Shown piece by piece: positions 34,575 through 64,000 of a stretch of DNA of 64,000 nt (positions are counted from its first letter, which is position 1; every line of letters begins with the position of its first letter). The DNA comes from Wenjunlia vitaminophila DSM 41686. Its GTDB lineage: Bacteria > Actinomycetota > Actinomycetes > Streptomycetales > Streptomycetaceae. The stretch covers positions 62,001 through 126,000 of the forward strand of contig NZ_KB904680.1 of assembly GCF_000380165.1 (NCBI RefSeq), in the 5' to 3' direction. The notes beneath the pieces are model-generated. The model was not told where the DNA came from and searched no databases. It worked only from the letters and a program-made list of their open reading frames with translations. Position numbers and translations under genes: made by a program.

Positions 34575-35333
34575 TCACTTCCCCAACCGCACCAGCACGC
34601 CCAGTCGCTGGAGCTCCCTGATGTGCTCGGCCGCCCTTCCGGGGGCCGTGCCGCCCCGCACCACGACCCCGGCTTCCAGGTTGCGCCGGGCGGCGGACTC
34701 GGTGAGGTTCGCGCTGCCCAGGTAGAGCACCTCCCGATCGGCGACCGCCAACTTCGCGTGTTGGCGGGCCCGGTAGGCCCGTGCGTGGGCGGCCCAGTGC
34801 CACAGGCGGGCACCCGGCACCGCGGCGAACGCGTCGGCGGGCTCCGGACCGGAGAGCAACCCCCGGGCTCCGTGAAGTGTCTCGACCACGATGTCCACCG
34901 CGACCCCTCTCGCCACGGCGTCGGTGAGGGCCCTGGTCAAGGTGGCGTAGGGACGAGCGGCGTAGGTCATGGCCAGCAGCTCGTCCCGTGCCTGGGCCAC
35001 CACCTCGACCAGCACGTGAGCGGTGGCCCTGACCGGGACTCGAGGCGTGGAAGGACCGCTCCACACGGTTCGGACCTCGACGGCATCCCGGCGCCGGGTC
35101 CAGGCAGCGGCATACCCGCGCAGGTAGGCAGCCGCCTCGGACGGGGACACCCCTTCGGCATCCATGGCCTGGTACAGCACGCCGACCGCGTCGCTTGCGG
35201 CGCCCTGGAGCACGACCAGCGCGTGGTCAGCGCCTCGTCCCCGAGCGAGGAGCCCCGCCAGGTCCTTGGTGCCAGTGGGCCCGAGCGCCGTGGCCGCACC
35301 GTGCGCCGCGGCCTCGAACCGCCGGCGGCTCAC
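34575..35333 (-). CDS. drmC: DISARM phospholipase D-like protein DrmC
   Basis: 252 aa, ATG overlapping the drmB stop (ATGA). It has a single PLD (HKD) motif RQHAKLAVADREVLYLGSAN followed by LTESAARRNLEAGVVV at about 190-220, the hallmark of DrmC. The N-terminal ~100 residues are helical. DrmC belongs to the core drmABC set of DISARM (Ofir et al. 2018), although it was reported there to be dispensable for protection. PLD-family nuclease activity would need two HKD motifs and therefore a dimer. Confidence 0.9.
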   Translation of the reverse strand: MSRRRFEAAAHGAATALGPTGTKDLAGLLARGRGADHALVVLQGAASDAVGVLYQAMDAEGVSPSEAAAYLRGYAAAWTRRRDAVEVRTVWSGPSTPRVPVRATAHVLVEVVAQARDELLAMTYAARPYATLTRALTDAVARGVAVDIVVETLHGARGLLSGPEPADAFAAVPGARLWHWAAHARAYRARQHAKLAVADREVLYLGSANLTESAARRNLEAGVVVRGGTAPGRAAEHIRELQRLGVLVRLGK

Positions 35334-41181: not shown

Positions 41182-41204
41182 TTGACTCAGTTCACAATAC
41201 ATGA
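41182..41204 (+). promoter_or_regulatory. TTGACT-GTTCAC box between drmA and the AAA ATPase
   Basis: TTGACT (41182-41187), two bases, then GTTCAC (41190-41195) and AATACATGAG. The same layout occurs before the kinase at 55115-55128 (minus strand) and, with two changes, at 58926-58939. It lies in the divergent gap, so it could serve either gene. TTGACT fits a -35 box but no good -10 follows at 17-18 bases. Confidence 0.35.
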
Positions 41205-49303: not shown

Positions 49304-52300
49304 CGGCGGGCTTCCTTCGCGGGGATCACAAAGACGACGGCGACGGGGAAGAGATGGGAGCGGGGGTCCATGTAGCGCGTGGCGATGGCGGCGAGTTCCC
49401 GGGTCCGCTCGGCGGGCAGGCCGGCGATGCGAGCCCGCCAGCGTTCCCGGTCCTCGCGGTACTGGCGCTGTTCCGCGCTGCTCAGTTCGCGTTCGGCGAA
49501 GAGCGCGATCTGTTCGTTGGCCGCGTCGCCTTCCTCCTTGAGCTTGGCGCGCAGTGTGGCCTCGAACCGGTCGAGTGTCGCCTGGATGCGGTGTTCCTCC
49601 TCGGCGCGCCGCTCGCCGAGTTCGCGTTCCAGGGTGGCGCGGCGTTCCCGGGCCCGGGCCGCCAGCGAGTCGTACAGCGGCCGTTGGAGTTTGGGCCAGG
49701 TGGCGGTGAGGTCCTGGCGCAGGTGGGGGGCTGCCTCGGTGCCTTCGGTAAGGGCATGGGCGAGGACCTGCCCCTGGGACCGTACGGACTCCCAGCGGCG
49801 GAAGCGTCCGGTGTCGCCGAACCAGCCACCGGCGTAGAGGATCTCCTCGTGCAGGCGGGTTCCGTCGGAGCCGACGAGGACGTAGCGCGCGTAGGCGGAG
49901 ACCAGGGTGGTGGTGACGGTGGGGTCGTCGGTGACCACGGCGGTGACGCGGTGCAGGCCGACGGTGTCGGCGTTCCACACGGCGGCGGTCAGCAGGCGGG
50001 TGGAGAGCGCGACGAGTGGGTGTTTCAGGTGGGCGAGGACGACGTCGTCGCGGCCCTCCGCCGCCGTGCGGGGGTCGAAGGTGACAGGGCGTCGCACGTC
50101 GGGGCGGAGCTTGTGGGCCAGCCCGGCGGTGGCGCGCTCCCAGGTTCCTGACAGCGTCGGCACCTCGTACAGCCCGCCGTCGTGGTCCTCGTGGTGGTAC
50201 GGGGTGAGGGGCCGCTGGTTGTCCAGGGCGAGGGCGGTGTCAACGACGCGCTTGACCGTGGTCGGGGTCAGGTTGAGGGCGGTCACGGTGTCGTCGTACT
50301 GGTCGGCGAGACGGCGTGCCTGGGCAGTGACGTTCTGCTCGGGGGCGACCTCGCCGCCGGTCCTACGGCCCCTGATCTGCCGGGTTCTGGCGTTCTCGAT
50401 GTCGATGGGGGTGTGATCGCCGGTCATGCGACGTTGGACTGCGTCGGCGATGACGGCGTTGACCGCGCCGAGGTCCGCCTCCATCCTGGCGACCTTGCGC
50501 GCGACCCGGGACAGGAACTCCAGGTCCGCCTCGTAGGAGCCGGGCGGGGCCTGCTGCCAGCCGGCCCCGATGAAGTGGGTGATCTCGGGGTCCGCCCGCT
50601 GTCCCCAGCGGTCGATCCGGCCGATGCGCTGTTCGAGCTTGTTGGGGTTGAAGGGGATGTCGTAGTTGATCAGCCGGTGGCAGTGGTTCTGGAGGTCGAT
50701 GCCCTCACCGGCAGCGTCCGTGGCGAGCAGGATGCGGACCCGTCCCTCAGCGGAGTCCGGGTGTGCCTGGAAGCCGAGGCGGATGGTTTCGCGTTCCTCG
50801 GAGCTGAGGCCGCCGTGCAGCACGGCGACCCGACCGTCATCGGTGAGCTTCTCCTGGCGCAGCAGGTCGAGCAGCCACCGCTGGGTGTCACGGTACTCGG
50901 TGAACACGACCACGCGCTCGTTGGTCCAGTGCTGGTCCGGGCAGCAGATGGCGCGCAGGGCACCGATCAGCACGTCGGCCTTGGAGTCTGCTGTGGCCTC
51001 GTGGGTCAGTGCCCAGCGTTCCATCTCCGTCAACAGCCGCAGTTCCTCACCGTCCTCGTGTGGGGTGAGGGTGGTGGCCCGGGTCAGCGCGTCGTCCTCG
51101 GCGTCGGCAAGGCCGAGGTCGTCGAGGTCGGCGGCCAGTTCGGGGAAGTCCTCGAGCCATTCCGGGACCTCGGTGGCGGCGGTCCTGGGGCGTCCGTCGG
51201 TGTCCTCCACGTGCGAGAGGTAGACCCGAACGGTGTGTAGGAAGGCAGCCGGGGATGAGAACAGGCGCTTCTTCAACAGCAGGGTGACCAGGTCAGCGGC
51301 GCGGCGTCCGCCGCGTGCCCTCGCGGCGATCCTCCTCTTGCGCAGGTCGGCGAAGCTGCTGAGCAGGCCGTGGATCTCGCGCTCGGCCGGGGTGTATTCG
51401 ACGTCGAGCACCCTGGACGTCCGGGTGCGGAACCGGGGAGTGCCGTCCTTGTTGGTGACGTTTGCCTTGAGCCGGCGTACGACGGTGTCGGCCAGTGCCT
51501 GCTCGTCGGGGTCAACACCCCGGGCGAACCGCTGGTTGTCGATGAGCTCGAGGAGCGCCGTGTAGGACTCGGGGTAGCCGTTGTGCGGGGTGGCGGAGAG
51601 GAACAGTCGGTGTTCGAAGTGGGGAACGAGCCGCCGGATCAGCTTGGTCTGCTGGGAGTCCACGGCGTAGACCTGCTTGGGTGCCGCGGGCGCCACGTGG
51701 TGTGCCTCGTCGAGGACGAGGAGGTCGAAGAACCTGCGCGTCGCCGTCGGGCCGGCCCCGGGGTCGTCGGGTGTCGCGGCGTCGGCGGGGACGACCTCGT
51801 CGAGCAGCCGCTGCGCCTTGGCGCCGCGCAGCCAGGGCAGGGAGACAATGGTCAAGGGGTGGACGCGGAACGGGTTCGCCGCGGTGCCGTGGGTGCGGCG
51901 GAGCCGGGCGCAGCGCTCGGAGTCAATGATGGTGAACTCAAGGCCGAACTTCTCGGCGAGTTCGTCGCGCCACTTCAGGGTCAACCCCGCGGGACACACG
52001 ACCATCACGCGCCGGGCCCGGGCGCGCAGTAACAGCTCCTGTATGACGAGTCCGGCCTCGACGGTCTTGCCGAGGCCGACGTCGTCGGCGAGGAGGAGGT
52101 TGACGCGTGGTGCGCCTACCGCGCGGGCGACCGGTTCGAGTTGGTAGGGCTCGATGGCCACCCCCGAGCGGAACGGGGACTGGAGCGTCTTGACGTCTGC
52201 GGAGGCCACCGCGGACCAGCGCACGGCGTCGAGGAAGGCGGCGAGGCGGGCTGGGGGATCGAAGCGACCGGTGGAGGCGTCGGGGAGGGAGCCCGCGGGC

Positions 52301-52533
52301 AGCACCCGACGGCCCGGCTCCACCTCCCAGATGACGCTGAGGGTGTCCCCGAAGTAGCCGTCGGCGACGGACTGGAGGTGCACCAGGGTCGCCGCTGGCG
52401 CGTCCGACGGCGACGGGGCGGGATCGACGGCCGTCACAACCCAGCTCTGGCCGCGGACCTCGACCAGGCTGCCCTCCTCGGGGAGCGGTTCCCGAGGAGG
52501 GCGGCTGGTGCCACGCTGGTCTGTCGCTGTCAT
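49300..52533 (-). CDS. drmD: DISARM SNF2-like helicase DrmD
   Basis: 1077 aa from ATG 52533 (MTATDQRGTSRPP). SNF2-type SF2 core: LLLADDVGLGKTVEAGLVIQ at about 150, LLVLDEAHHVAPAAPKQ at about 273, LFLSATPHNGYPESY, and the C-terminal RecA lobe with VVFTEYRDTQRWL and LEQRIGRIDRWGQ at about 636. The last ~300 residues are a long charged coiled coil (RARERRATLERELGERRAEE). drmD is the class 1-specific helicase of DISARM. Its stop overlaps the drmMI start, so the two are translated together. A stem-loop lies in its leader. Confidence 0.93.
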   Translation of the reverse strand: MTATDQRGTSRPPREPLPEEGSLVEVRGQSWVVTAVDPAPSPSDAPAATLVHLQSVADGYFGDTLSVIWEVEPGRRVLPAGSLPDASTGRFDPPARLAAFLDAVRWSAVASADVKTLQSPFRSGVAIEPYQLEPVARAVGAPRVNLLLADDVGLGKTVEAGLVIQELLLRARARRVMVVCPAGLTLKWRDELAEKFGLEFTIIDSERCARLRRTHGTAANPFRVHPLTIVSLPWLRGAKAQRLLDEVVPADAATPDDPGAGPTATRRFFDLLVLDEAHHVAPAAPKQVYAVDSQQTKLIRRLVPHFEHRLFLSATPHNGYPESYTALLELIDNQRFARGVDPDEQALADTVVRRLKANVTNKDGTPRFRTRTSRVLDVEYTPAEREIHGLLSSFADLRKRRIAARARGGRRAADLVTLLLKKRLFSSPAAFLHTVRVYLSHVEDTDGRPRTAATEVPEWLEDFPELAADLDDLGLADAEDDALTRATTLTPHEDGEELRLLTEMERWALTHEATADSKADVLIGALRAICCPDQHWTNERVVVFTEYRDTQRWLLDLLRQEKLTDDGRVAVLHGGLSSEERETIRLGFQAHPDSAEGRVRILLATDAAGEGIDLQNHCHRLINYDIPFNPNKLEQRIGRIDRWGQRADPEITHFIGAGWQQAPPGSYEADLEFLSRVARKVARMEADLGAVNAVIADAVQRRMTGDHTPIDIENARTRQIRGRRTGGEVAPEQNVTAQARRLADQYDDTVTALNLTPTTVKRVVDTALALDNQRPLTPYHHEDHDGGLYEVPTLSGTWERATAGLAHKLRPDVRRPVTFDPRTAAEGRDDVVLAHLKHPLVALSTRLLTAAVWNADTVGLHRVTAVVTDDPTVTTTLVSAYARYVLVGSDGTRLHEEILYAGGWFGDTGRFRRWESVRSQGQVLAHALTEGTEAAPHLRQDLTATWPKLQRPLYDSLAARARERRATLERELGERRAEEEHRIQATLDRFEATLRAKLKEEGDAANEQIALFAERELSSAEQRQYREDRERWRARIAGLPAERTRELAAIATRYMDPRSHLFPVAVVFVIPAKEARR

Positions 52534-52583
52534 GGCTGTCTGTGTTCCCCTCGGACAACGCCTGGTTCGAACAGGCAAGGATG

Positions 52584-52610: not shown

Positions 52611-52674
52611 GCCGGGTATCGGCAGCATAGCAAGCGATGCTGCTGTGAACAGAGCTCACGGCAGATGAGGGTGG

Positions 52675-54069
52675 TCAGCGCTGGTCGTGGAGCAGACGAC
52701 GGACGCGGACGAGGAGCTGCTCCGCGCGTCGTCGCCGGTCGTCCTGGGCCGGGAGGAGCCCACGCGTCTCCTCGTGCACGTCGTTCAGAAGCTGGTGAGC
52801 GCGGCGGTGGTCGCCGGTCCCGGCCACCAGCACCGCGATCTCCAGCCGGGTGTCGAGGACCGTGGGGTCTGCCGGACCGAACACCTGCTGCTGGATCGGA
52901 AGCAGCGCCTGGTAGGCGTCGAGAGCTTCGGAAATCTCGCCCAGAGCAGCGAGGCAGGCCGCGGCACCGGCCCGGCAGGTGATCAGGGCCCGGTCGGTGG
53001 GTGGGCGGTCGCGACGCAGAACGGTCTCCAGGGAACGGAAGCCGTCGTGCGCGGGGCCCGGCTGGCCGGTCCGGCGCATCCGGTCCAGACGATGGAGTTC
53101 GGCGGAGACCGTCTCGTCGTCAAACGCCGCGAACAGCACCTCAGTTGCCGGTGGCCCGTTGCGCTCGGTTCGGGCCGCGGCCTGGTCGGGATACGGAGAC
53201 GGCCGCCGCGCGGTCCAGGGGGAGAGCAGGTCGCGTACCTGGGCGGCCGAGGCGGGCCGGTCTGTCGGGTCCTTGGCGAGCAGCCGCATGACCAGGTCGG
53301 TGAGTGCCGCCGGCAGTTCGGGGTGGTGGTGGGACAGCGGCGGCACCGGCTCGGTGCGGTGCCGGAAAAGCAGCATCAGGGCGTTGGGCGCGGTCAGCGG
53401 AGGTACCCCGGCGAGCAGTTCGTAGGCGACGCAGCCGAGCGAGTACAGATCACTCAGAGTGGTCGCCTGGCCCTCGGCCTGCTCAGGGGCCATGAAGCCG
53501 GGTGTGCCCGGGGTGGCGTGGGTGCCGGTGAGTGCCTCGTCGTTGGGGTCGGGTTGCAGGGCCGCCGCGATACCGAAGTCCAGGACCTTCACCTGGCCCG
53601 CTGGGGTGAGCATCAGGTTGGACGGCTTGAGGTCCCGGTGGATGACGCCCCTGGTGTGGGCGTAGGTGAGGGCGTCCGCAGTCTGGGCAAGGATGTCGGC
53701 CGCATGGTCAGCGGGTAACCGGCCGCGGTGTTTCAGCAGGTCACAGAGGGTGGTTCCGGGCACCAGTTCCATGACGAGATAGAGCTGCCCATCATCTAGC
53801 CGCCCTTGGTCGTAGATGATCGGTATGCCGGGGTGGTCAAGGCGCGCGGTGAACCGGGCCTCGCGGACAAACCGCCGCTCCAGGACGGCGCGGGCGCTGC
53901 CCTGACACCGTGGGACGAAGAGCTTCACCGCCACCGACCGGTCGAGCTGCCGGTCGTGGGCCGCCCACACCTCCCCCATGCCGCCGTGGCCAAGCCGCTC
54001 CTTCAGCTCGTAACGCTCCCCGATGGCCCGCAGCACGGTCCGCCCCCACTCCACGGTTTGACACGCCAC
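52675..54069 (-). CDS. Soluble Ser/Thr kinase with helical C-terminus (kinase 1)
   Basis: 464 aa from ATG 54069; GTG 54036 just before AIGERYELKERLG is also possible. Kinase domain: LGHGGMGEVWAAHD, VAVKLFV, GVIHRDLKPSNLM, VKVLDFGIAAAL, PGFMAPEQAEGQ. The last ~170 residues form a TPR-like helical region (CLAALGEISEALDAYQALLP, VLDTRLEIAVLVAGTGDHRR). No membrane helix. It lies 141 bp upstream of drmD on the same strand and 54 bp behind kinase 2, so it may be part of the DISARM transcript. Kinases are known in BREX/Pgl-type defence (PglW), which makes a regulatory role in the island plausible. Confidence 0.9.
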   Translation of the reverse strand: MACQTVEWGRTVLRAIGERYELKERLGHGGMGEVWAAHDRQLDRSVAVKLFVPRCQGSARAVLERRFVREARFTARLDHPGIPIIYDQGRLDDGQLYLVMELVPGTTLCDLLKHRGRLPADHAADILAQTADALTYAHTRGVIHRDLKPSNLMLTPAGQVKVLDFGIAAALQPDPNDEALTGTHATPGTPGFMAPEQAEGQATTLSDLYSLGCVAYELLAGVPPLTAPNALMLLFRHRTEPVPPLSHHHPELPAALTDLVMRLLAKDPTDRPASAAQVRDLLSPWTARRPSPYPDQAAARTERNGPPATEVLFAAFDDETVSAELHRLDRMRRTGQPGPAHDGFRSLETVLRRDRPPTDRALITCRAGAAACLAALGEISEALDAYQALLPIQQQVFGPADPTVLDTRLEIAVLVAGTGDHRRAHQLLNDVHEETRGLLPAQDDRRRRAEQLLVRVRRLLHDQR

Positions 54070-54123
54070 CCCCGTCGTCCCCCGAGAACGACGATCCTCT
54101 CACTTCCACCGCCCTCGTCGCGA

Positions 54124-55068
54124 TCACTGCCGGTGCGGTCCCTGGGGAAGTACGAACGGCCGGAGCGGGTCTTCCGCGGCGAAGTGGCCCCCGCTGGCCC
54201 GGGCGGGTTCGGAGCGCGGCAGGAACGGGCCCAGCGCCGCGTACACGTCCGCGGCCGATGCGGGACGCCCGCCGCGGTCCTTCGTCAGCAGGGCGTCAAC
54301 CAGACGCTGCAGGCCTGGGGGAACATCGATCCCACACGAGGCGATCGTGGGCGGCGTCTCGCACAGGTGTCGGCTGACCAGGAGGGCCGGCTGCTCCGGG
54401 GGGAACGGCGGTGCCCCGGTGAGCATCTCGTGGAGCAGACAACCCACGCTGTACAGGTCGCTCCTGCCGTCGAGATCCCTTCGACCGGACAGGAGTTCCG
54501 GGGAGGCGTACACGATGTTCCCCAGGTGCTCTCCCGTTTCTGTCAGGCGGACCCCGGCGTCGGAGGCCACCTTGACCAGGCCGAAGTCGAGGATCTTCAC
54601 GACTCCGTCACGGCGAATCATGATGTTCTGCGGCTTGAGGTCCCGGTGAACGAGGCCCGCGGCGTGCGCAGCCGACAGTCCGGAGCAGACCTGGGCCGCC
54701 ACCGCCGCCGCGGTGGCGACGTCGAACCGCTCGCCCGGCTGTTCCCCCAGGACCAGGTCGAGGGTGGCACCGTCAACGAGCTGCATGGCGAGCCAGCAGG
54801 TCTCGTCCACGACGTCCGCGTCGTGGACCGTGGCCACGTTGGCGTGATCCACCCTGGCGGCGGCCTGCGCTTCCCGCTCGAAGCGGCGCAGTACCTGCTG
54901 GCGGGTGCCGGGATCGGCCAGCAGCCCGGCGGCGACAGTCTTGATCGCCACCGGACGTCGCAGGCGGAGGTCCCGCGCCAGCCAGACCCGCCCCATGCCC
55001 CCCGATCCCAGAAGCCCCTCCAGGCGGTAGCGGTTGCCAAGGACGGCCCCCGCGGTGAGCACGCACAC
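54124..55068 (-). CDS. Soluble Ser/Thr kinase (kinase 2)
   Basis: 314 aa from GTG 55068, placed by GAGGAGGG 5-6 bases upstream; the ATG at 55128 would add 20 residues lacking a ribosome site. Kinase domain alone: LLGSGGMGRVWLARD, VAIKTVAA, GLVHRDLKPQNIM, VKILDFGLV, YASPELLSG, with no membrane helix and only a short tail. Upstream on the minus strand, TTGACT-AT-GTTCAC (55128-55115) resembles the box between drmA and the AAA gene. Confidence 0.9.
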   Translation of the reverse strand: MCVLTAGAVLGNRYRLEGLLGSGGMGRVWLARDLRLRRPVAIKTVAAGLLADPGTRQQVLRRFEREAQAAARVDHANVATVHDADVVDETCWLAMQLVDGATLDLVLGEQPGERFDVATAAAVAAQVCSGLSAAHAAGLVHRDLKPQNIMIRRDGVVKILDFGLVKVASDAGVRLTETGEHLGNIVYASPELLSGRRDLDGRSDLYSVGCLLHEMLTGAPPFPPEQPALLVSRHLCETPPTIASCGIDVPPGLQRLVDALLTKDRGGRPASAADVYAALGPFLPRSEPARASGGHFAAEDPLRPFVLPQGPHRQ

Positions 55069-55114
55069 GATCCCTCCTCGAACGTCGCACTGCACAGGCA
55101 GGCAGCGACACTCT

Positions 55115-55128
55115 GTGAACATAGTCAA
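55115..55128 (-). promoter_or_regulatory. TTGACT-GTTCAC box before kinase 2
   Basis: Minus strand TTGACT (55128-55123), AT, GTTCAC (55120-55115), 46 bases before the GTG start of kinase 2. Same two half-sites and spacing as 41182-41195. Confidence 0.35.
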
Positions 55129-55260
55129 TGGTCGTAGTAGCCTGCCAGAGTGTTGTAGACCACAGCGCCAGCGCCGCGAAAGGCATGATGCAAGCCGCCA
55201 GTCAGGCCCCCAGGTTCCCGATCTTGGGTAGGCCTGCCGTCCTACGTACGGAGATCCTCC

Positions 55261-57267
55261 ATGTCGTCAAGCCAGCCCGTACCCGTCAGTCTGGCGGAGA
55301 TCGCACGGATTGCCGGAGTGGGGCGCGCGGCGGTCAGCAACTGGCGGCGGAGGCACGACTCGTTCCCGCAACGCGTCGCCGGAACGGACGCCAGCCCCCT
55401 GTTCTCACTGGACGCGGTGGAGCAGTGGTTGAGAGCGAACGGCAAGCTGCGCGAAACCAGGGGGCTCGAGCTGCTGTGGCCCCGGTTCGAAGCGCTCGGC
55501 AGCCGGTACACCACTGCCCTGGCCATCGCGGAGGTAGGTCGGCGGATGCGGCGCAGCCGACCCCGGCCGGGCACTGAGCCCATCCCGCCGCAGGCGTGGC
55601 AGCTGATCCGCGAAGCCGTCCGACTGGGCCGGCGGGAAGGGCCCGCGGAAACGTTCGAGTTCCTGCTGCGCAGGTGGTTGGACACCCATGTACGGCAGAT
55701 CAGCACCACGCCGCCGCAGCTGGCGGACCTGATGGTGGGCATCGCCTCGCTCGTGACGCCGAACGCTGACCGCCCGTTCACCGTCCTGGACCCGGCGTGC
55801 GGCGCCGGCCATCTCCTCATGTCAGCCGCGACGGCCTACGCGTCACCAACGCTGATCGGCTGTGAGCTCGACCCGACCGTCGCCGCTCTCGCCGCAGAAC
55901 GGCTGGCGTTCCATACCGAGGGGACTCACGCCTCCGTCACCGTTCGGGACGGCAACTCCCTGTCCAGCGACCCCTACGCGAACCTCACCGCCGACGTGGT
56001 GGTCTGCACTCCGCCGTACAACGAACGGGACTGGGGGTACGAGGAGCTGGCCACTGACCCCCGCTGGGTGTACGGCCTGCCCCAGCGCAGTGAATCAGAG
56101 CTCGCTTGGGTCCAACACACGCTGGCGCGGCTACGCCCCGGGGGCACCGCGGTGCTCCTGCTTCCTCCTGGGGTCGCGTCCCGCCGATCGGGACGCAGGA
56201 TTCGCCAGGGGCTGCTGCGGGCCGGGGTGCTGCGGGCCGTGGTCGCCCTGCCGCCGGGGTGCGCCCAGCCACACAGCGTCTCTCTGCACCTGTGGGTCCT
56301 TCGGACCCCGGACGACGGCAGTCACCGGGCGACCGCGGAGGACATCCTGCTCGTGGACGCGACCAGTCACACCGACAGGGGTGCTGACGGCAGGGACGCC
56401 GGACCGAACTGGCAGGCGCTCTCCGACCACGTGCTAGGTTCCGCGTTGCCGCTCCTGGATGCGCCACCTTCCTCACGCCCCGCCGCGAGCAGCGTCAGGG
56501 TCCCCGTGGTGGACCTCCTGGGCGACGAGGCTGACCTCACCCCCGGACGGCACATCACCCCCGACCGGGCTGCCAGGGGTAAACAACTGGCTGCGTCCTG
56601 GGAGAAGTTCGCCTCCTTCCTTTCCGAGCTCAATGACACCCGTGACACCCTGTCCAGCCTGAAACTGGCCAGTGACGACGTGCCGCAGTGGCCCACCCGG
56701 AACCTCGGGGAACTCTGTCGCGCCGGAACCGTCGTCCTGCGCAGTGGACAACAGCCCCCGGACGGGGCAGTCCTCGACGGCGAGCCCGGAGGCGACAGCG
56801 TGCCGTTTCTGACCGTGCCCGACCTCCTGCAAGGAGGGACCCCCCGAGCATGGGTCGCCGGCGACGCCTCCGCGGTGGTGGTGCGGAAGGGAGACGTGGT
56901 GGTCGTGGGCGTGGTCCGGGCCTTCTCTGCCTGGGTTCACCAGGGCCCGCCCGTCGCCCTCGGACCGCAACTGCACGCGTTGTACGTGACGCCCGGCATG
57001 CTCGACGCCCACTTCCTGGCGGGGTGCCTGCGCGCGCCGTCCAACAGTCGTCAGGCGGGCACCCACACCTCGACATCGTCCCGCGTCGATGTGCGCCGGC
57101 TGCTGGTCCTCCAGCCGCCCCTGGAGGACCAACGCCGCTACGGTGAGGTGTTTCGGCAGATCTCCACCTTTGAGCAGCTCCTGACCAGGACGGGGGAACT
57201 CGGGCGTGGCCTCATCGGTGACCTCAGCGAACAGCTTGCCTCCGGGCATCTGTCATCGAGGGGCTGA
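55261..57267 (+). CDS. N6-adenine methylase fused to a recognition domain
   Basis: 668 aa. An N-terminal DNA-binding segment (LAEIARIAGVGRAAVSNWRR, FSLDAVEQWL) is MerR/excisionase-like. The HsdM-like core has motif I TVLDPACGAGHLLMSAA at about 180 and GCELDPTVAALAAERL; motif IV reads VVVCTPPYNERDWG at about 243, with Thr in place of the usual Asn/Asp. The C-terminal ~200 residues look like an HsdS-type recognition domain with a closing helix (PFLTVPDLLQGG, VVLGP.., LLVLQPPLEDQRRYGEVFRQ). It reads in the opposite direction to the flanking kinases. The likely job is host DNA marking for the neighbouring pPIWI-RE/nuclease genes; whether TPPY is active is open. Confidence 0.88.
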   Translation: MSSSQPVPVSLAEIARIAGVGRAAVSNWRRRHDSFPQRVAGTDASPLFSLDAVEQWLRANGKLRETRGLELLWPRFEALGSRYTTALAIAEVGRRMRRSRPRPGTEPIPPQAWQLIREAVRLGRREGPAETFEFLLRRWLDTHVRQISTTPPQLADLMVGIASLVTPNADRPFTVLDPACGAGHLLMSAATAYASPTLIGCELDPTVAALAAERLAFHTEGTHASVTVRDGNSLSSDPYANLTADVVVCTPPYNERDWGYEELATDPRWVYGLPQRSESELAWVQHTLARLRPGGTAVLLLPPGVASRRSGRRIRQGLLRAGVLRAVVALPPGCAQPHSVSLHLWVLRTPDDGSHRATAEDILLVDATSHTDRGADGRDAGPNWQALSDHVLGSALPLLDAPPSSRPAASSVRVPVVDLLGDEADLTPGRHITPDRAARGKQLAASWEKFASFLSELNDTRDTLSSLKLASDDVPQWPTRNLGELCRAGTVVLRSGQQPPDGAVLDGEPGGDSVPFLTVPDLLQGGTPRAWVAGDASAVVVRKGDVVVVGVVRAFSAWVHQGPPVALGPQLHALYVTPGMLDAHFLAGCLRAPSNSRQAGTHTSTSSRVDVRRLLVLQPPLEDQRRYGEVFRQISTFEQLLTRTGELGRGLIGDLSEQLASGHLSSRG

Positions 57268-57359
57268 CTCCACCACTCGGGGCCGCGAGCGGCGCATGAG
57301 GAGGCCAGCCAGTGGTTGCGCAGGCCGAGAACCGAGGGTGCGTCGCGTCCCTGACGAGG

Positions 57360-58850
57360 TCACCCATCTGCGGTTCGAGGCTCTTGTCCCGGTGGATCCA
57401 GACGCCGTCGGTCAAGTTCGTTCGCCACTTCCTCGCGCACTCGCCCAACGGCACGCGCATGTTCCTCCGGCAGCGTCTCGATGGTGCGGACCACCTCCGC
57501 GAGGGCTGCCGACGCCCCGTTGAGCTGACCGAGAACCAGTCGGCACTCGGCAGCCCGCAGCCGGAGCACCGCGCGTTCCGCCCGCTGCCCGGCCTCCTCA
57601 CCTTTGGCCATGTCCTCGGCCAGGCACGTGTACAGGGGTGCGGCCCCGCCGTAGTCACCCGCCCGCCGCAGTCCTTCCGCGGCCAGCCACCAGACCTCTC
57701 GGACCAGCGGCCGGCGCACTCCCCATTCAGCGCGGACGCGTGGGGCCAGTCCGGCCAGGTGTCTCACCGCCGCTCCCGACTCACCCCGGTCGAGTTCCTT
57801 CTGTGCCGCGGCGCACGCCTCCTCCACATGGGCCGTGTCCAACCACTCCGCTTCCATTTCCCCGGGCGAGGAGTCTGGGGTGAGGTCGTGGTTGACCCGT
57901 GCTCGGTCCGGGGCGCGGAACGGCAGCGTCGGGTCAGGGTGCAACCTGGGCGAGGGGGCAGGATCTCCCTCGGACGGGGCGTGGCACCGCACGATCGACA
58001 GCACCTCGCCGATGTCAGGGCGGTCCTGCGGCTCCTTGGCGAGCATGCGCAGTACGAGGTCGTCCAGCTCTCCGGGAATCCATCCGGCGTGGACGCACAG
58101 GGGCATCGGTTCGTCTCTCAGATGCTGTTCGATCGGTCCTCTGTCCCCGGAGGCAGGGAAAGGTGGGCATCCGGCGAACAGTTCGTAGCAGACGCAACCG
58201 AAGGAGTAGATGTCGGCGTACGGTGTGGGTTCCCTCTCCAGGATCTGCTCGGGTGCCTGGTAGCCGCGGCTGCCCAGCGTAGAACCGTGTCGGGTGTAGG
58301 CGGTGACCCCCGCCCCCAGAGGTTTGGCGATGCCGAAGTCGATCAGGGCGGCGGAGCCTTCCCAGGAGAGCATCATGTTCTGCGGTTTCAGGTCTCGGTG
58401 GACCACCGGCAACGCGTGCACACAGGCCAGCGCCTCGGCGATCTGGACGGCGACGGCTGCCGCCACTCGCAGGGTGAGTGGCTGACGTTGCCGCAGGAAC
58501 TCATACAACGTGACGCCTTCGACCAGACGCATCGCCAGGTACGGAGACCCCCGGTGAGTGCCCTGACCATACAGTTCGGGAATCCCCGGGTGCCTGATCG
58601 TTCCCAGCAGCCGGCCCTCTCGACGGAACCTGCCCCGCAGCGCGTCGAGCTCGGTGAGCCTGTCCTCGGTGTCGAGCTGCCGGAGGTCCTCCGTATCCGG
58701 TCGGAGGAACTTCACGGCCACCTCGCGCTCGACCATGCGGTCGTCGGCGCGCCACACCTCGGCCATGCCGCCCTTGCCGATCAGAGCCGTCAACTCGTAG
58801 CGATCACCAACGACGTCCCTCGCCCGAATGTACTCGGACTCCCTGTCCAC
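57360..58850 (-). CDS. Soluble Ser/Thr kinase with helical tail (kinase 3)
   Basis: 496 aa from GTG 58850 (GAGAGG upstream); a frame open to 58946 adds non-conserved residues. Kinase domain: LIGKGGMAEVWRADD, VAVKFLRP, LPVVHRDLKPQNMM, ALIDFGIAKPL, GYQAPEQILE. The last ~170 residues are helical, TPR-like (AHVEEACAAAQKELDRGESG, LLVLGQLNGASAALAEV-type). No membrane helix. It is divergent from the RecB-like nuclease gene and convergent with the methylase gene. Confidence 0.9.
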   Translation of the reverse strand: MDRESEYIRARDVVGDRYELTALIGKGGMAEVWRADDRMVEREVAVKFLRPDTEDLRQLDTEDRLTELDALRGRFRREGRLLGTIRHPGIPELYGQGTHRGSPYLAMRLVEGVTLYEFLRQRQPLTLRVAAAVAVQIAEALACVHALPVVHRDLKPQNMMLSWEGSAALIDFGIAKPLGAGVTAYTRHGSTLGSRGYQAPEQILEREPTPYADIYSFGCVCYELFAGCPPFPASGDRGPIEQHLRDEPMPLCVHAGWIPGELDDLVLRMLAKEPQDRPDIGEVLSIVRCHAPSEGDPAPSPRLHPDPTLPFRAPDRARVNHDLTPDSSPGEMEAEWLDTAHVEEACAAAQKELDRGESGAAVRHLAGLAPRVRAEWGVRRPLVREVWWLAAEGLRRAGDYGGAAPLYTCLAEDMAKGEEAGQRAERAVLRLRAAECRLVLGQLNGASAALAEVVRTIETLPEEHARAVGRVREEVANELDRRRLDPPGQEPRTADG

Positions 58851-58925: not shown

Positions 58926-58949
58926 TGGACTGAGTACACAATGCATGCG
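58926..58949 (+). promoter_or_regulatory. Third copy of the TTGACT-GTTCAC-like box
   Basis: TGGACT, GA, GTACAC, AATGCATGCG (58926-58949) matches the box at 41182-41205 at about 20 of 24 positions. It lies in the divergent gap between kinase 3 and the nuclease gene. Confidence 0.35.
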
Positions 58950-59027
58950 ATGGTGAGTTAGATTGCTCCAGTGAGCCCTCTTGGTCTCACTCGATCACCT
59001 CCACTCGCGTCTCTCCACGGTGAGGTC

Positions 59028-60770
59028 ATGACCGAACCCTCCATGCATGCCGATGTCGTCGGATCTTCCTGGTTCATCAGCGTCAAGCCCGGCACTGTCC
59101 GCGAGGAGCCCGGCGCCTGCCCCACCCACCGGGGGGCCGCCATACGCCCACTTGTCCCCGCGCCCCGCCCAGGCTTCGGGCCACTTCAACAGTTCGGTTT
59201 CGGCCCGCTCTGCGACGCCTTGGATCGGGTGGAACACCAGGGCGGGGCTGTCGCGGGTGTGCTCGAGGAGCTCCGCCTGCGACGCGGCGACTTACGGGGC
59301 TGGGGAGTCCCAGCACATGCCGCACTGGTGCGGTGGACGACCGAGATGGTGCCTCGCTTCCTGGCGGCTCGTGCGGCCGAGCAGCGGACGGCTGCCGAAG
59401 CGGGGCTTCCCCCCAGCGATCCGATTCCCTGGCCCTGGGTCGTCCGGACGGCGCGGACCGACGTCCCCGACGCGAGGGGAGCACGCCAGTACGAGCACAC
59501 CGTGTGGGGGCGGGCCTACGCCTCGGCGGACGGTACGCTCCGCGATCTGTGGTTGCCTTCCTTCGGACAGGCGAAGGAAGGCCTGCCCGAGGCCGAACTG
59601 GCCGCCATCGCCTACGTCCTGTTGAACGGCGAACCGGAACCTCGCCGCCGACGGGGCAGCGCGCCCCCGCCCAGTGCCACCCGCACCAAACACCCGCCGC
59701 ACCGGCTCAGAGTCTTCTCCTTCGGGTGCGCGGACGGCAGTTGGCGCACGCTCCTCGACTGGCGCGACGAGCAGGTACAGGAGCAGTTCGTCGGACACGC
59801 CGCCCCGGCGTTCCACCGCGCCGCCACCGATACCGGGGCACGCCCCGGGCCGGACTGCGTCGAGTGCAAGGCGATCAGCCGGTGCCAGACGCTCCAGCGG
59901 ACACCTCGGTTGTGGCATGGCAGGCCCACCGTCCCGGCGCGGCGGCGACGGTCGCTCTCCGCCTGGGACCTGCGGTTGTACGCCCAGTGTCCCGCCCAGT
60001 ACCACCTCACCCGTCACCTGCGACTCACGTCGCTCCAGCAGGAGAGTGACGCCGCGCGGCGGGGCAGGGCCGTGGACGCCTGGCTCAACGAGGCCCACCG
60101 CTCTCGCCGCCCTCGAGGGTGCAGGGAACTTCCAGGACCGACCTCTGCGACGAGCTGGTCAGCGGGCGGGTACCGACTGGAGGGCGCGCTCGCTCAGGAA
60201 GGCGCCGCCATGCTCCGGGAGCACCAGTCGCTGTGCCCGCTGGACGGTCTGGGTGAGGACGAGCAGGTCCTGGTGCAGCACCGGGTCACCACGTACGTTC
60301 CCGAACTCGACGTGGTGGTGATCGCTGTCCCGGACCTGCTCCACACGCGCGCCGGAGGCTGGGTCTGGCGGGAGACCAAGACGTCCACACGCCCGTTGTG
60401 GGAGGGCAGGTCGCTGATGGCCCAGTACCCACAACTGGCCTTGGGTGTGCTGTTGCTGGCGGCAGGAGCGATGGGGGCCCAGCCTCGACGTTCCTGGGTC
60501 GAGTTCGAGCTGCTGAACGGCAACGACGGTGCGCTGGAGCCGCTGGATCCCAGTCAGCCGGTAGTGGTCGACGAAGCCCGTGATGTCGTGCACGAGCTCG
60601 CGCAACCGCTGCTGGACGACGCCGACTACGCGCCACGGACCGGACGGCACTGTCACGGCTGCCAGGCACGGCCCTGGTGCACCGCGGGTTCGGCCTACGT
60701 GGTCGAGCACCCCTCGCCCCCCGACCACGCCGATGCGGGCCCGCGACCCGAGGAGGCCGACGATGTCTGA
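59028..60770 (+). CDS. RecB-like PD-(D/E)XK nuclease with Fe-S cysteines
   Basis: 580 aa from ATG 59028 (MTEPSMHADVVGSSWF); ATG 59043 is an alternative and the site before either is weak. The C-terminal part is a RecB/Cas4/AddB-type nuclease: LSAWDLRLYAQCPAQYHLTR (first Cys), VVVIAVPDLLHTRAGG with Asp, VWRETKTSTRP as the E-x-K pair, YPQLALGVLLL (QhxxY-like) and the closing HCHGCQARPWC, which with the first Cys makes a Cys4 Fe-S site. The N-terminal ~300 residues are a family-specific region with another Cys pair (CVECKAISRCQ). Its stop overlaps the next start by 8 bp. Confidence 0.85.
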   Translation: MTEPSMHADVVGSSWFISVKPGTVREEPGACPTHRGAAIRPLVPAPRPGFGPLQQFGFGPLCDALDRVEHQGGAVAGVLEELRLRRGDLRGWGVPAHAALVRWTTEMVPRFLAARAAEQRTAAEAGLPPSDPIPWPWVVRTARTDVPDARGARQYEHTVWGRAYASADGTLRDLWLPSFGQAKEGLPEAELAAIAYVLLNGEPEPRRRRGSAPPPSATRTKHPPHRLRVFSFGCADGSWRTLLDWRDEQVQEQFVGHAAPAFHRAATDTGARPGPDCVECKAISRCQTLQRTPRLWHGRPTVPARRRRSLSAWDLRLYAQCPAQYHLTRHLRLTSLQQESDAARRGRAVDAWLNEAHRSRRPRGCRELPGPTSATSWSAGGYRLEGALAQEGAAMLREHQSLCPLDGLGEDEQVLVQHRVTTYVPELDVVVIAVPDLLHTRAGGWVWRETKTSTRPLWEGRSLMAQYPQLALGVLLLAAGAMGAQPRRSWVEFELLNGNDGALEPLDPSQPVVVDEARDVVHELAQPLLDDADYAPRTGRHCHGCQARPWCTAGSAYVVEHPSPPDHADAGPRPEEADDV

Positions 60771-61947
60771 TTCCCCGCCGGCGACCGACTGGCTGGACAA
60801 CCAAGACCTGCGACTGCTGCGGGACGTCGCCACTGCCGTGCTCCGCCTGGCAGAGGTATCCGGTCTCGACTCCTTCACCCTGCCGTACCCCGCCCAGTCG
60901 CAGCGCGCCCTGGACGCCCTGGTGCTGAGCTGCCTGCGCGCCGGGGCCAGGCCACCTTCCGGGCTGCCGGAGCTGTTGCGCTGGTGCAGGACCCGACCGC
61001 TGTTCAGCTGGCCCCTCGATGGCCTGCACGAGGCCGGGTTCCAGAGCACAGACCGTCTGATCGACGGTTCCTCGGGAGAGCCGACCCAGCTCTGTCACGA
61101 ACTGGCGGTCGAGGGGCGGGGAGATAGCGCTTCCCGTCAGTACGACCGGTTGGTGGTGCACGAGGCCATGCGGGCCTGCCGGGAGGCCTCGTCACCGGAG
61201 TCATACACCGCGTTCCGACGGCTGCTGGTGACCCGGCCCGTGCTGACCGAGGCCGACTGGCTGGACATCGCCGCCGACCTCTACCTCGACCCCGTTCGTG
61301 ACCTGCTGGACGTCATCTACGTCGAGGTTCCGGACAGCTACCGGAGGGACGGCGGATACACCCCCTGTGGCCGCTGTCTGACCCTCCTGACGCCGATGGC
61401 CGACAAGGGTTGGTGGTGTGAACGGGACCAGTGCCGCCATCTCGGCACGCCCCCGCCGGCCCCGACGCTGAACCCCGCCGAGTGCGGCGAGGTGCGCCAC
61501 CTCTTCCGCCCGCTGCGCCAGTTCGTCACCTGGCCGGGGCAGGCGGAGGTGTCCCTGGAGGCGCGCCTGCGCACCAGGGGGCTGGCGGTGGAGATGTGGC
61601 CGGGCTTCGACGCCTACGACCTCCGGGTCACCTTCCCCGACGGACACGTGTGGGCGATCGACGTCAAGGACTGGGCTCATCCCGGTCTCCTGGGGCGTGC
61701 CGCCGAGGCGGTGCGCCGGGATCCGCCCTACGACGAGGCGTGCTGGGTGGTCCCGCGCTTCCGGGTCGAAGTGCGACGGGACTACCTCGAGGTCTACGCG
61801 CGCGAGCGCACCGAGCGAGCGGCGGGCCTGCGCCTGCTCACCGACGACCAGCTCGTCGCCGCGGCCACCGCGCGGCTACGCGGCAGCCGCGGCCCCTCCG
61901 CCCGCATCGCCCCCCTGAGCACGGAACACGGAGATCTCGATGCGTGA
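60763..61947 (+). CDS. pPIWI-RE-associated restriction endonuclease-like protein
   Basis: 394 aa from ATG 60763 (AGGAGG 8 bases upstream), overlapping the previous stop. A helical N-terminal domain is followed by a zinc ribbon (YTPCGRCLTLL, GWWCERDQCRHLG, about 195-225) and a PD-(D/E)XK fold: PGQAEVSLEARLRTRGLAV, FDAYDLRVTFPDG, VWAIDVKDWAHP with the Asp/Asp-x-Lys site. This zinc ribbon plus REase layout is that of the endonuclease found beside pPIWI-RE genes (Burroughs, Iyer and Aravind 2013). The stop overlaps the helicase start (ATG inside GATGCGTGA). Confidence 0.85.
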   Translation: MSDSPPATDWLDNQDLRLLRDVATAVLRLAEVSGLDSFTLPYPAQSQRALDALVLSCLRAGARPPSGLPELLRWCRTRPLFSWPLDGLHEAGFQSTDRLIDGSSGEPTQLCHELAVEGRGDSASRQYDRLVVHEAMRACREASSPESYTAFRRLLVTRPVLTEADWLDIAADLYLDPVRDLLDVIYVEVPDSYRRDGGYTPCGRCLTLLTPMADKGWWCERDQCRHLGTPPPAPTLNPAECGEVRHLFRPLRQFVTWPGQAEVSLEARLRTRGLAVEMWPGFDAYDLRVTFPDGHVWAIDVKDWAHPGLLGRAAEAVRRDPPYDEACWVVPRFRVEVRRDYLEVYARERTERAAGLRLLTDDQLVAAATARLRGSRGPSARIAPLSTEHGDLDA

Positions 61948-64000
61948 CCGCAGCCAATGGCACGAATCCCTGGCACGAGACCTCGGGCCATGGCCGGAGG
62001 AGCACTCGACGGTCACACCGGTCCTGCTCTGCCAGGTTGAGCTCGGTCTGCGGCTGCTGGAGGTTCTCGACGACGCCCGGCCTGCCAACGGCGTCTGGAC
62101 CCTCCTCGGAGGCTATCCCTTCGCCCGGGCGCTGGGCATCGCGCCGACCGCGTCCGAACGTCTGGCCCTGGCCGCCGCCCGGCACCTGCTGTGGCCCATG
62201 CGGCGTCGCCGGGTGTGGGAGCAGTGCTTGGAGACCTACCTGGGGCTCCCGGAGCGGCTGAGGGGGTACCGCGTGCCCGCGGCCGGCGGTCCGGCGCGTC
62301 GGGTTGATCCGCCGGTTGCCTCCCACCGCTTCGCCGTCTACGACGCCGCCCTCGGTGACCTGCCCCCCTTCATCCGCAAGCCGCTCCCCCAGGCCGGGGC
62401 TGGTTCCTACCGCTTCCTGGACCGGCAGCGGCACGCCTCCGTGCGCATTCCCGACGACGTCGTCCTCCCCCCGGCCGACGGCCACGACCTCGTCGCCGGA
62501 CGACCCGACCCGTCCAGCCCTCTCGACGTGCCGCGCGCCGAGCTCGCCAAGACCGCCAGGTGGATGGACGCGGAAGAGGAACGGCGCGGGCTGCCACGAG
62601 GCCACTGGCGACGCCGGCTCGAGGAGCTCCGCCTCCAGAGGCGCACGGACGACGGCATCTCGTTCACGAACACCGACCACCTCCGTCTGGACCAGTTGAC
62701 GCACCTGGTCGGCATGGTTGGCGCTGGCAAGTCCACTCTGATGACCCTGGTGGCCGTGTGGGCGCACCGTAGGGGCCTGCGGACCACCCTGGTGGTGGGT
62801 GACGTCGCCGAGCAACTGTTCCTGACCGAGCTGTTCCGGGGGCTCGGCCTGACCGTCGCCCTCGTTCAGGGCGGCAGCACCCGCGAGCAGCACACTCAGC
62901 GACTGCACCGCCGGCTCGCCGCCCGCGGGGAACGCTCCCTGCTCCGACAGACGAGCAAGGCGTTCGACCACCTCAGCACCGCCTGCCCGTTGGACGCCCT
63001 ACGGGGCCTCGACAGCGCCACGTCGCTGCGGTACGTGGACGCGCCGTGTGGCGGCCTTCACCCGGTCCGGCACGCCGCGACGCCTACGTCGCAAACCTAC
63101 CCGCTGTTCAGCGAGCTCGAACGGCTCCGTGCCAGACGAGACGGACCAGGCTCACACCGCACTCCCCCGGTGGAGGCCCACCCCTTGGAGGCGGACTCCG
63201 GAGAGCTCCGTGACCCCCACTCCTGTCCACTGTGGAGCGCCTGCCCCCGGCATCGGGCGACGCGCGAACTGGCCGACGCGCTGATCTGGGTGGCGAACCC
63301 GGCCAGCCTGGTCCAGACCGCCGTACCTCGGCAGATGAACGCCGAGCGCCTGCGCTACCTGGAACTCGCCTGCCTGCGCAGCAACATCGTGATCGTCGAT
63401 GAGGCGGACCGGGTCCAGATGCAGCTCGACCAGATCTTCGCCCCGTCCGCGACGCTGGTGAGGAAGGGACCGGAGTCCTGGTTGGACCGGCTCCAGACCC
63501 GCGAGATCGCCGAGCTGTCCCGACAGGGTCGCCTGCCCCTGTCCGAGCGGGACGTGGAACGCTGGTCCGCCGCTCTCGATGTGGTCAGCTCGGCGACCAA
63601 CCGGCTCTACGCCATGTTGATCCGCAGCAAGGAACTACGGGACTGGGCCCAGATCGACTACTTCAGTGCCTGGACGCTCCAGGAGCGCCTGCTTCAGGAG
63701 TGGTACCCCTCGCCGGAGCCGGTGAGCGAAGAGATGGTCGAGGAAGAGGTGGGGCTCTACGACGACGAGGACGACACCATGCCCCCGGACCGGGGGACGC
63801 CCGTGTCTCGGGACCCGTGCGCGGCACGCCGAGAAGAGATCAACCGACTGCTCGACGGCTTCCGGGACGACCCGCTGGGTGACCGGGGTCCCCGTGACCC
63901 CACCACCGACGCTCTCACCCGTCTAGCCCACGACCTGCTGCACACCCTGAACGAGAGCAACTCCCGAGAGCGCGTCCGCAACGTGCTCGACGGCTTCCTG
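61940..64000 (+). CDS. DinG-like Fe-S helicase of a pPIWI-RE island (partial)
   Basis: At least 687 residues from ATG 61940 (GGAG before it), open at the right edge. The first ~240 residues are a helical region of the kind seen in front of the helicase in pPIWI-RE islands (VTPVLLCQVELGLRLLEVLD, LLGGYPFARALG). Walker A is GMVGAGKSTLMTL at about 257-264. Four cysteines spaced as an XPD-type Fe-S cluster follow (STACPLDAL, DAPCGGL, HSCPLWSACPRH, about 350-435). Walker B is NIVIVDEADRVQ, a DEAD rather than DEAH form. The helicase would open DNA or an R-loop for the PIWI/REase partners. The remaining helicase motifs lie outside the window. Confidence 0.85.
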   Translation, partial: MRDRSQWHESLARDLGPWPEEHSTVTPVLLCQVELGLRLLEVLDDARPANGVWTLLGGYPFARALGIAPTASERLALAAARHLLWPMRRRRVWEQCLETYLGLPERLRGYRVPAAGGPARRVDPPVASHRFAVYDAALGDLPPFIRKPLPQAGAGSYRFLDRQRHASVRIPDDVVLPPADGHDLVAGRPDPSSPLDVPRAELAKTARWMDAEEERRGLPRGHWRRRLEELRLQRRTDDGISFTNTDHLRLDQLTHLVGMVGAGKSTLMTLVAVWAHRRGLRTTLVVGDVAEQLFLTELFRGLGLTVALVQGGSTREQHTQRLHRRLAARGERSLLRQTSKAFDHLSTACPLDALRGLDSATSLRYVDAPCGGLHPVRHAATPTSQTYPLFSELERLRARRDGPGSHRTPPVEAHPLEADSGELRDPHSCPLWSACPRHRATRELADALIWVANPASLVQTAVPRQMNAERLRYLELACLRSNIVIVDEADRVQMQLDQIFAPSATLVRKGPESWLDRLQTREIAELSRQGRLPLSERDVERWSAALDVVSSATNRLYAMLIRSKELRDWAQIDYFSAWTLQERLLQEWYPSPEPVSEEMVEEEVGLYDDEDDTMPPDRGTPVSRDPCAARREEINRLLDGFRDDPLGDRGPRDPTTDALTRLAHDLLHTLNESNSRERVRNVLDGFL

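Follow-up and report, generated by a model that had tools for sequence, protein, structure and literature searches.

A 64,000-nt stretch of the genome of Wenjunlia vitaminophila DSM 41686 (the window; NZ_KB904680.1, positions 62,001–126,000) holds three Ser/Thr kinases, K1, K2 and K3, and a DNA-methylase-like protein with a helix-turn-helix (HTH) domain, MT, between two defence systems, DISARM and pPIWI-RE. K3 and MT recur with one form of pPIWI-RE, K1 and K2 recur with one clade of DISARM, and a 14-bp site stands in three promoter regions of the locus and nowhere else in the 6.43-Mb, high-GC genome. The presence of the same genome-unique site in all three regions suggests that one switch controls both systems. 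We think it probable, with some reserve, that the kinases and the methylase are the control module of this composite locus, with MT acting on shared operators and the kinases switching on infection. All coordinates are window positions unless another locus is named; L numbers denote loci and G numbers genomes.

Kinases and methylase between two defence systems

The preliminary description of this region reported three soluble-looking Ser/Thr kinases around a methylase, flanked by restriction-type systems, and our analysis agrees on both points. K1 (52675..54069, minus strand; Pfam Pkinase, 166 bits) is linked to DISARM and has a TPR-like C-terminus. K2 (54124..55068, minus strand; Pkinase, 141 bits) is 314 amino acids (aa) long and ends in a tail with a DPxxPF motif. 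K3 (57360..58850, minus strand; Pkinase, 145 bits), which is linked to pPIWI-RE, has 496 aa and carries, behind a DP(T) linker, a seven-helix TPR-like C-terminal domain related to the tail of K1 (hhalign probability 94%). The longest open reading frames (ORFs) of K2 and K3 are 54124–55128 and 57360–58946; the likelier starts are a GTG at 55068 behind GAGGAGG, and 58850, respectively. MT (55261..57267, plus strand; Pfam N6_Mtase) joins an HTH to an HsdM-like N6-methylase and an S-like C-terminus. The flanking systems are identified by the models for DrmA, DrmB, DrmC, DrmD and DrmMI on one side, and by restriction endonuclease (REase), DinG and PIWI profiles on the other.

The Pkinase domains of K1, K2 and K3 are complete. 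An alignment of 23 K3 sequences shows no variation at the catalytic Lys, the helix-C Glu, HRDxKPxN, the D and G of DFG, or the P and E of APE; the Lys, HRD, DFG and APE motifs are kept throughout, except that L054 reads DLG and SPE. A check of the catalytic pattern is passed by 53 of 59 K3-type sequences, with five failing at the Lys pattern alone and L197 failing everywhere. K1–K3 carry intact catalytic residues, as predicted for active Ser/Thr kinases. The DP of the K3 linker is invariant in the 23-row alignment and the T nearly so, DP[TKS] being found in 52 of 59 K3-type sequences. The DPxxPF-type tail motif, which resembles this linker motif, is present in 22/23 K2-type versus 1/21 K1-type sequences. 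Peak 19-residue Kyte-Doolittle means are 1.5, 1.5 and 1.9 for K1, K2 and K3, respectively, below the value of at least 2.0 reached by most kinase ORFs examined from the same genome (19 of 30, a set that includes K1–K3), and hence K1–K3 look soluble.

There are 43 Pkinase matches in the genome. With even spacing, a genome would have about 0.04 groups of three kinases in 6.3 kb; since kinases do cluster, it is the comparative results that decide. The idea that K1–K3 are housekeeping kinases was rejected, as K1–K3 lie on a side of the tree from which 26 of 27 background kinases of the same genome are absent. A fourth kinase in the window (4086–5723, minus strand) groups with the genome's other kinases (bg_L147), apart from K1–K3. 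The PADLOC names PD-T4-6 and mad6 were rejected as evidence of family, since these models also match this fourth kinase.

The REase profile of pPIWI-RE, PF18154, matches in 94 of 394 genomes of the family. Of the 105 places listed, we read 75 (60, 13 and two of our own), together with 6 loci from outside the family and 68 from named genomes. Seven duplicate records were removed before loci were counted, and L231, L233 and L244 are too short upstream for the kinase test. Of the testable, non-redundant loci that have the PD-(D/E)XK nuclease gene, PDX, 58 out of 69 carry a kinase upstream of the core; 56 were found by script, and L226 and L238, where overlapping reading frames hid the kinases, by direct reading. 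Among loci without PDX, a kinase was found in 1 of 70, a cyanobacterial locus with the kinase on the far side. MT (>150 bits) occurs in 54/67 PDX loci versus 0/70 loci without PDX. Kinase and MT are both present in 53 PDX loci and both absent from 10, with one alone in 4 (n = 67). The kinase-bearing loci span genera of six actinobacterial families, including Streptomyces, Nocardia, Umezawaea, Micromonospora, Actinomadura and Herbidospora.

Pairwise distances between K3 sequences correlate with those of the helicase (r 0.95; 46 non-redundant loci), as do those of MT (0.92), and the core genes correlate among themselves at 0.93–0.97 (0/2000 permutations). When K3-type or related loci are compared pairwise, 29 of 325 pairs have any flanking homologue in common, or 12 of 253 if composite loci are left out. 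We also used the non-kinase C-termini of K3 and K1 as profiles over the 394 genomes, scoring the best 7–8 candidates per genome. The K3 tail finds 26 places of at least 80 bits. In 25 cases a pPIWI-RE REase gene is less than 5 kb away; all eight places outside the profile's own members are at pPIWI-RE, and the next best place scores 60 bits. The 26th place, in G018, is beside DISARM with K1, K2 and MT; its K3 is N-terminally short, and a pPIWI-RE REase was not found in the G018 genome. These comparisons give good support to K3 and MT as members of the form of pPIWI-RE that is found in actinobacteria and has the PD-(D/E)XK nuclease. One PDX clade without kinase and MT (L061, L062, L064–L070) has a conserved module in their place, at about 4.0–8.95 kb in REase-oriented coordinates. 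In L070 this module comprises proteins of 299, 374 and 503 aa without a Pfam match and a 447-aa AAA/helicase-like protein, with relatives in the inspected clade members; it is perhaps an alternative controller. A second, distant pPIWI_RE_REase protein is encoded elsewhere in the Wenjunlia genome (G000:C34:7911-8228).

All 43 strong DrmD places in the 394 genomes were read. Directly upstream of drmD, on the same strand, K1 is present in 17 and K2 in 16. Neither is present in 26, one of which is L173, where absence is untestable because the upstream stretch is only about 0.6 kb. The presence of K1/K2 changes once on the DrmD tree (support 94); the 25 testable, more distant DrmD loci have no K1/K2-type kinase, and the kinase of L176, 8 kb off, is unrelated. 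The K1-tail profile finds 17 places of at least 139 bits, all beside drmD, and the next best place scores 112 bits. DrmD, K1, K2 and MT are kept together in eight loci (L155–L162) without a pPIWI-RE gene in the stretch read, and the genes beyond MT in these loci are mostly unrelated (2/28 pairs share one); one of the eight genomes, G189, carries a pPIWI-RE locus elsewhere. In G160, K1–K2 at drmD and MT–K3 at pPIWI-RE are about 30 kb apart. That K1 and K2 go with one DrmD clade of DISARM is, on this comparative evidence, well supported too.

The preliminary description proposed to check whether the kinases co-occur with pPIWI-RE or DISARM in other genomes, and took kinase genes at this locus in strains without both systems as contrary evidence. 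The counts given above bear out the co-occurrence, and no K1-type or K3-type place away from both systems was found: the 26 K3-type and 17 K1-type places are all at pPIWI-RE or DISARM, K2 being outside this search. The association of the kinases with defence systems therefore stands, with the refinement that two different systems are involved: K1 and K2 go with a DISARM clade, and K3 and MT with pPIWI-RE.

The predicted fold of MT consists of an HTH (residues 8–59), an HsdM-like methylase and an S-like end (predicted local distance difference test, pLDDT, 87.5). Among its relatives the HTH is nearly invariant and most sequences retain motif I. In 33 of 73 rows (near-duplicates included), motif IV does not fit [NDS]PP[YFW]; the variants include NPPS, NPPA, SPPT and YPPS. 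MT of the window has motif I (DPACGAG), and its motif IV, TPPY, is likewise outside the pattern. The HTH, the often degenerate catalytic motif of the relatives, and the promoter position with a site that also marks drmA were absent from the preliminary description. Where both systems adjoin at MT, there is a single MT above 150 bits (our locus, L036, L040, L050, L214, L217 and L245); in L221 and L243, a lone MT behind pPIWI-RE is paired with a DISARM-clade K2 at the end of the stretch. In a tree of 18 rows, the pPIWI-RE MTs enclose a group (support 99) in which the MTs of DISARM-only loci stand together with the window and L040 sequences. This pattern suggests that one methylase serves two adjoining systems.

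Relatives of the HTH-methylase are also found at other systems. In a Dietzia plasmid, the type I restriction genes that follow the relative are complete; in S. mirabilis and G001, the relatives occur with a TPR kinase and hsdM/hsdR-like genes; and in Nonomuraea gerenzanensis one lies between a PP2C phosphatase and a kinase. Because type I systems and DISARM already possess a methylase of their own, an accessory, phosphorylation-controlled role would fit the HTH-methylase. The strict 14-bp site described below is absent from the type I and PP2C stretches scanned (L282, L290–L293 and L212). Coordinates of relatives at type I restriction genes are L212 9646–20000 and L293 11840–24970, each with a TPR kinase, and L291 11435–20013; the Dietzia plasmid locus carries an NYN protein. 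In Nonomuraea gerenzanensis (L292 11136–14749), the PP2C gene is back to back with the HTH-methylase and kinase genes, a trio that is possibly a minimal reversible phospho-switch; the other loci covered by a motif scan gave no phosphatase of this kind.

A 14-bp site at three promoter regions

The 14-bp consensus GTGWACWNAGTCMA has 3 matches in the whole genome, and a reversed-pattern control has 0. Candidate operator site 1 (GTGAACTGAGTCAA; 41182..41195, minus strand) came from this whole-genome scan and lies 93 bp before the drmA ATG. Candidate site 2 (GTGAACATAGTCAA; 55115..55128, plus strand) is in the 192-bp gap between the divergent K2 and MT genes. Candidate site 3 (GTGTACTCAGTCCA; 58926..58939, minus strand), which carries T at the fourth base, is in the divergent gap between K3 and PDX. 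The site was found by comparing the regions before MT (21 representatives) and between K3 and PDX (18). CTGTGAAC or its complement occurs in 12 pre-MT loci and 9 K3/PDX loci, and shuffles reach at most 5 and 6, respectively.

Because the pattern was derived from 21 of the same loci, counts of the strict site within the family set lack independence. Whole-genome counts, the drmA sites, which played no part in motif discovery, and loci of other genera are better tests. Sites are also present before drmA in L283, L284, L286 and L289, with the conserved drmA N-terminus 117–151 bp on, in L285 and, by position, in L287. Second kinases of K2 type are preceded by sites in L042, L046, L057 and L059. 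In 26 further genomes picked by hand, 23 with a system and 3 without, there are 63 sites versus 3 for the control, and 0 in the 3 genomes without loci. Two extra sites lie between drmMI and drmA, at L283 9428 before a 526-aa gene and at L289 10291 before a 2023-aa frame.

The strict site is present in 21/23 K3-type loci, in 29/33 named actinobacterial loci, and in 10/13 DISARM loci with K1 or K1/K2. The DISARM kinase loci without it (L164, L165 and L168) have no MT in their stretch, and in L163 the site sits at MT, 7.5 kb from K2. It is absent from all 26 kinase-less DISARM loci, all 9 pPIWI-RE loci of the MT-less clade, all 35 named, mostly cyanobacterial loci without PDX, and all 19 other family loci. 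A looser form, TTGACTNNNTTCACA matched at 13 of 15 positions, or a palindrome, was scored at the PDX promoter, and is present in 51/55 loci with MT versus 2/16 without. Both MT-less positives, and L241, are contigs cut beside the kinase; with these set aside, the count without MT is 0/13. Three uncut loci (L054, L197 and L203) have the kinase but neither MT nor the looser site. Hence, the site follows the HTH-methylase gene and not the kinase.

A proposed control module and its alternatives

How might three kinases and one methylase act on two nuclease systems? In the scheme we favour, K1, K2, K3 and MT would form a control module, in which MT is a methylase-derived DNA-binding regulator whose HTH binds the 14-bp operator, probably as a repressor rather than an activator. 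From its operators, MT would set three groups together: drmABC; K2-K1-drmD-drmMI along with its own promoter; and PDX-RE-helicase-pPIWI along with K3. K1 and K2 on the DISARM side, and K3 on the pPIWI-RE side, may use their helical tails as sensors or for docking. On infection, which would be the trigger, the kinases would phosphorylate MT or effector proteins, and the nucleases would be released or activated. The overlap of the site with −35-like hexamers is as expected of a repressor site. By analogy with PglW in the Pgl system, we propose the kinases as the natural input to the MT switch. A more detailed version, which we think less likely than not, is that the HTH-methylase is a methylase turned sensor-repressor that silences DISARM and pPIWI-RE by means of the same operator in three promoter regions; unmarked DNA entering the cell would titrate it via its target-recognition domain, and the kinases would lock it off by phosphorylation.

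Several observations weigh against a common control module. Eleven PDX loci have no kinase: nine of the clade with the other module, L058, which has MT, and L204. Therefore, kinase and MT are not obligatory. At least 5 of the 63 sites in the hand-picked genomes are away from the loci (in G364, in G106, two in G317, and one on another contig of G011), and further sites lie on the same contig 8–42 kb off, in surroundings that were not read. None of the nine variant pPIWI-RE loci, whose MTs are more distant, has the strict 14-mer; six pass the looser test and L055, L056 and L071 fail it, as does L222. A separate motif was sought in these variant loci, and only a looser form of the same site emerged. 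A match at 13 of 15 positions arises by chance, with at least 1 of 50 shuffles reaching it in 26 of 71 regions, and the p value of 1e-9 for the link between looser site and MT overstates independence because the loci are related by descent. The DISARM locus of G081, with K1 only, has no site though the genome has MT. Because the site overlaps the −35-like hexamers TTGACT and GTGAAC, part of its conservation may be that of a promoter. Lastly, the defence kinases are not recovered as one group in a wider kinase tree, where K3 is split in two; the backbone of this tree is unresolved, and so we do not claim a single clade of all defence kinases.

The promoter-like features of the site lead to an alternative explanation, that it is bound by another regulator or is a conserved divergent promoter core, with MT a plain self-marking methylase and the co-location a matter of operon structure. 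YANNNT is found 16–19 bp past GTGAAC in 30 of 81 distinct sites versus 7.9 expected, as would fit a promoter. However, three exact sites in 6.43 Mb are far more specific than a promoter hexamer, and the site is lost with the MT gene even in the three loci where kinase and core stay. A self-marking enzyme is also hard to reconcile with a motif IV that so often departs from the pattern while the HTH is nearly invariant. We regard this explanation as doubtful.

A second alternative, that the kinases are abortive-infection effectors or guards similar to Stk2 or PD-T4-6, has a slightly poorer standing and seems to us unlikely. Such kinases would have no control role, and would halt or kill the cell by broad phosphorylation if restriction is beaten. 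Stk2 phosphorylates many cell targets upon infection, according to a review (PMC12926258), the top PADLOC matches of K1, K2 and K3 are PD-T4-6 models, all three kinases look soluble, and K1 and K3 have TPR-like tails. However, the PD-T4-6 models match the fourth window kinase too, and the specific pairing of kinase with MT, the two being mostly kept or lost together, and the shared sites point to control. The weakest alternative, that the four genes hitch-hike in a defence island, draws on the window being such an island and on the abundance of kinases in the genome, but is very improbable and largely refuted by an order and orientation fixed over several families, co-inheritance with differing flanks, and the reciprocal specificity of K3-type and K1-type tails across the 394 genomes.

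The locus can be compared with several known systems. DISARM of the class with drmD and drmMI is present with drmA, drmB, drmC, drmD and drmMI, so that PADLOC models find the DrmA, DrmB, DrmC and methylase that define DISARM; the window adds two kinases upstream of drmD, the HTH-methylase and the marked site before drmA. For pPIWI-RE, the Y-REase, the DinG-like helicase with domain Z and the pPIWI-RE protein are all found (PF18156, PF18154, PF18155, PF13111, PF18157 and PF13032), as are the four core genes of the PADLOC version (PprPDDEXK, PprRE, PprDinG and PprPIWI) of what was a three-gene system in the available portion of Burroughs 2013; the window adds a divergent kinase and the HTH-methylase. 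That portion describes the pPIWI-RE REase without an associated methylase gene, from which the many PDX loci with MT differ without being excluded from the system. The preliminary description placed kinases outside canonical DISARM and pPIWI-RE, in agreement with what could be consulted of Burroughs 2013 and Bravo 2022. Its comparison with Pgl/BREX was apt: in Pgl (BREX type 2), a Streptomyces phage defence, the PglW kinase is paired with the Pgl methylase, is required for resistance, and was proposed to signal, probably by phosphorylation, to activate the methylase (Hoskisson 2015, PMC4365076, as far as the text was accessible). Here, small soluble-looking kinases of 314–496 aa (by likely starts) replace PglW, none being a PglW-sized protein with NERD and kinase domains, and the effectors are DISARM and pPIWI-RE. 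The PglW model gives K1 a partial kinase match of 85 bits, and no PglZ was found among the window proteins scanned, a scan that did not cover every window gene. Elsewhere in the genome (G000:C27:23112-31382), a 2127-aa frame of about the size of PglW contains a kinase domain and lies near a 993-aa DrmD-like helicase, possibly another Pgl/BREX-like locus.

MADS, known here through PADLOC models, offers relatives of mad1 (HTH, 25 bits), mad2 (methylase, 81 bits) and mad6 (kinase, 206–242 bits). MT differs in that HTH and methylase are fused, and of the remaining mad genes, the scan of window proteins gave a weak mad8 match and no others. K1–K3 share the kinase fold of PknB-type Hanks kinases (about 32–36% identity to M. 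tuberculosis PknB structures), from which they differ in the TPR-like tail and in that no membrane or PASTA part was seen. In the literature accessible to our search, which was limited in coverage, we found no description of a kinase in DISARM or pPIWI-RE, of an HTH-methylase as part of either or a site joining both, or of the trigger or control of pPIWI-RE. PADLOC includes the four core pPIWI-RE proteins, and none of the best 25 models for K1–K3 and MT is named for pPIWI-RE or DISARM. What appears to be new against this literature is that pPIWI-RE and a DISARM clade include a kinase and an HTH-methylase, and that the two are linked by one site.

What would such an arrangement mean? It would add genes that the PADLOC models used do not assign to DISARM or pPIWI-RE, and the pairing of kinase and methylase known from Pgl would reach further defences. 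Two different nuclease systems are, it is suggested, wired as one regulon with a single common methylase. For pPIWI-RE, the dedicated kinase, HTH-methylase and genome-unique site make a directly testable control circuit. If the sensor-repressor version were true, there would be a portable, phospho-controlled licence common to DISARM, pPIWI-RE and type I restriction; behind this idea are the HTH-methylase and kinase at hsdM/hsdR (two loci) and the PP2C and kinase of Nonomuraea gerenzanensis.

Locus layout and neighbouring genes

The genes drmC-drmB-drmA-drmMI-drmD-K1-K2 are all on the minus strand, MT is on the plus strand, K3 on the minus strand, and PDX-RE-helicase-pPIWI on the plus strand. 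MT and K3 are tail to tail, and K3 and PDX back to back. On the DISARM side are drmC (34575..35333, minus; PLD nuclease; PADLOC DrmC, 359 bits), drmB (35330..37333, minus; DUF1998/MZB; DrmB, 243 bits, and Pfam MZB), the drmA helicase gene (37225..41088, minus; DrmA, 965 bits), the drmMI ORF (44993..49978, minus; DrmMI, 1730 bits), whose real start is probably near 49.3 kb, and drmD (49300..52578, minus; DrmD, 1405 bits). The start of drmA was moved to 41088 from the N-termini of orthologues, the longest ORF extending to 41712.

On the pPIWI-RE side, PDX, the PD-(D/E)XK nuclease gene of the operon (58971..60770, plus; PprPDDEXK, 579 bits), starts at 58971 or 59028. RE, encoding the pPIWI_RE_Y and REase protein (60580..61947, plus; PF18156, 196 bits; PF18154, 144 bits), probably starts at about 60.76 kb, and its closest named relatives are from Streptomyces (72–73% identity). 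The DinG-type helicase gene (61940..64000, plus; PF18155, PprDinG) runs on past the window to about 65668, and the pPIWI-RE gene (plus) lies beyond the window end, to about 68795, with PF13111, PF13032, PF18157 and PprPIWI matches in the helicase/pPIWI extension.

The preliminary description had two of the kinases probably sharing a transcript with drmD. K2, K1, drmD and drmMI follow one another on a single strand, separated by short gaps, and a search of that strand at 49000–59300 gave no terminator-like site. Co-transcription of K2-K1-drmD-drmMI is plausible on these grounds. A sigma-70 promoter scan found nothing. The GC content dips to 0.565 at 44001–46000, beside the 3ʹ end of drmMI, in surroundings of about 0.70. 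Beyond drmC, a 2020-aa protein with DinG-like and DpdF-like helicase parts is encoded at 28402–34464, and a 2075-aa protein with almost no domain match, other than the weak mad8, at 19823–26050. Upstream of pPIWI-RE, L069 encodes a 64% relative of the 2075-aa protein.

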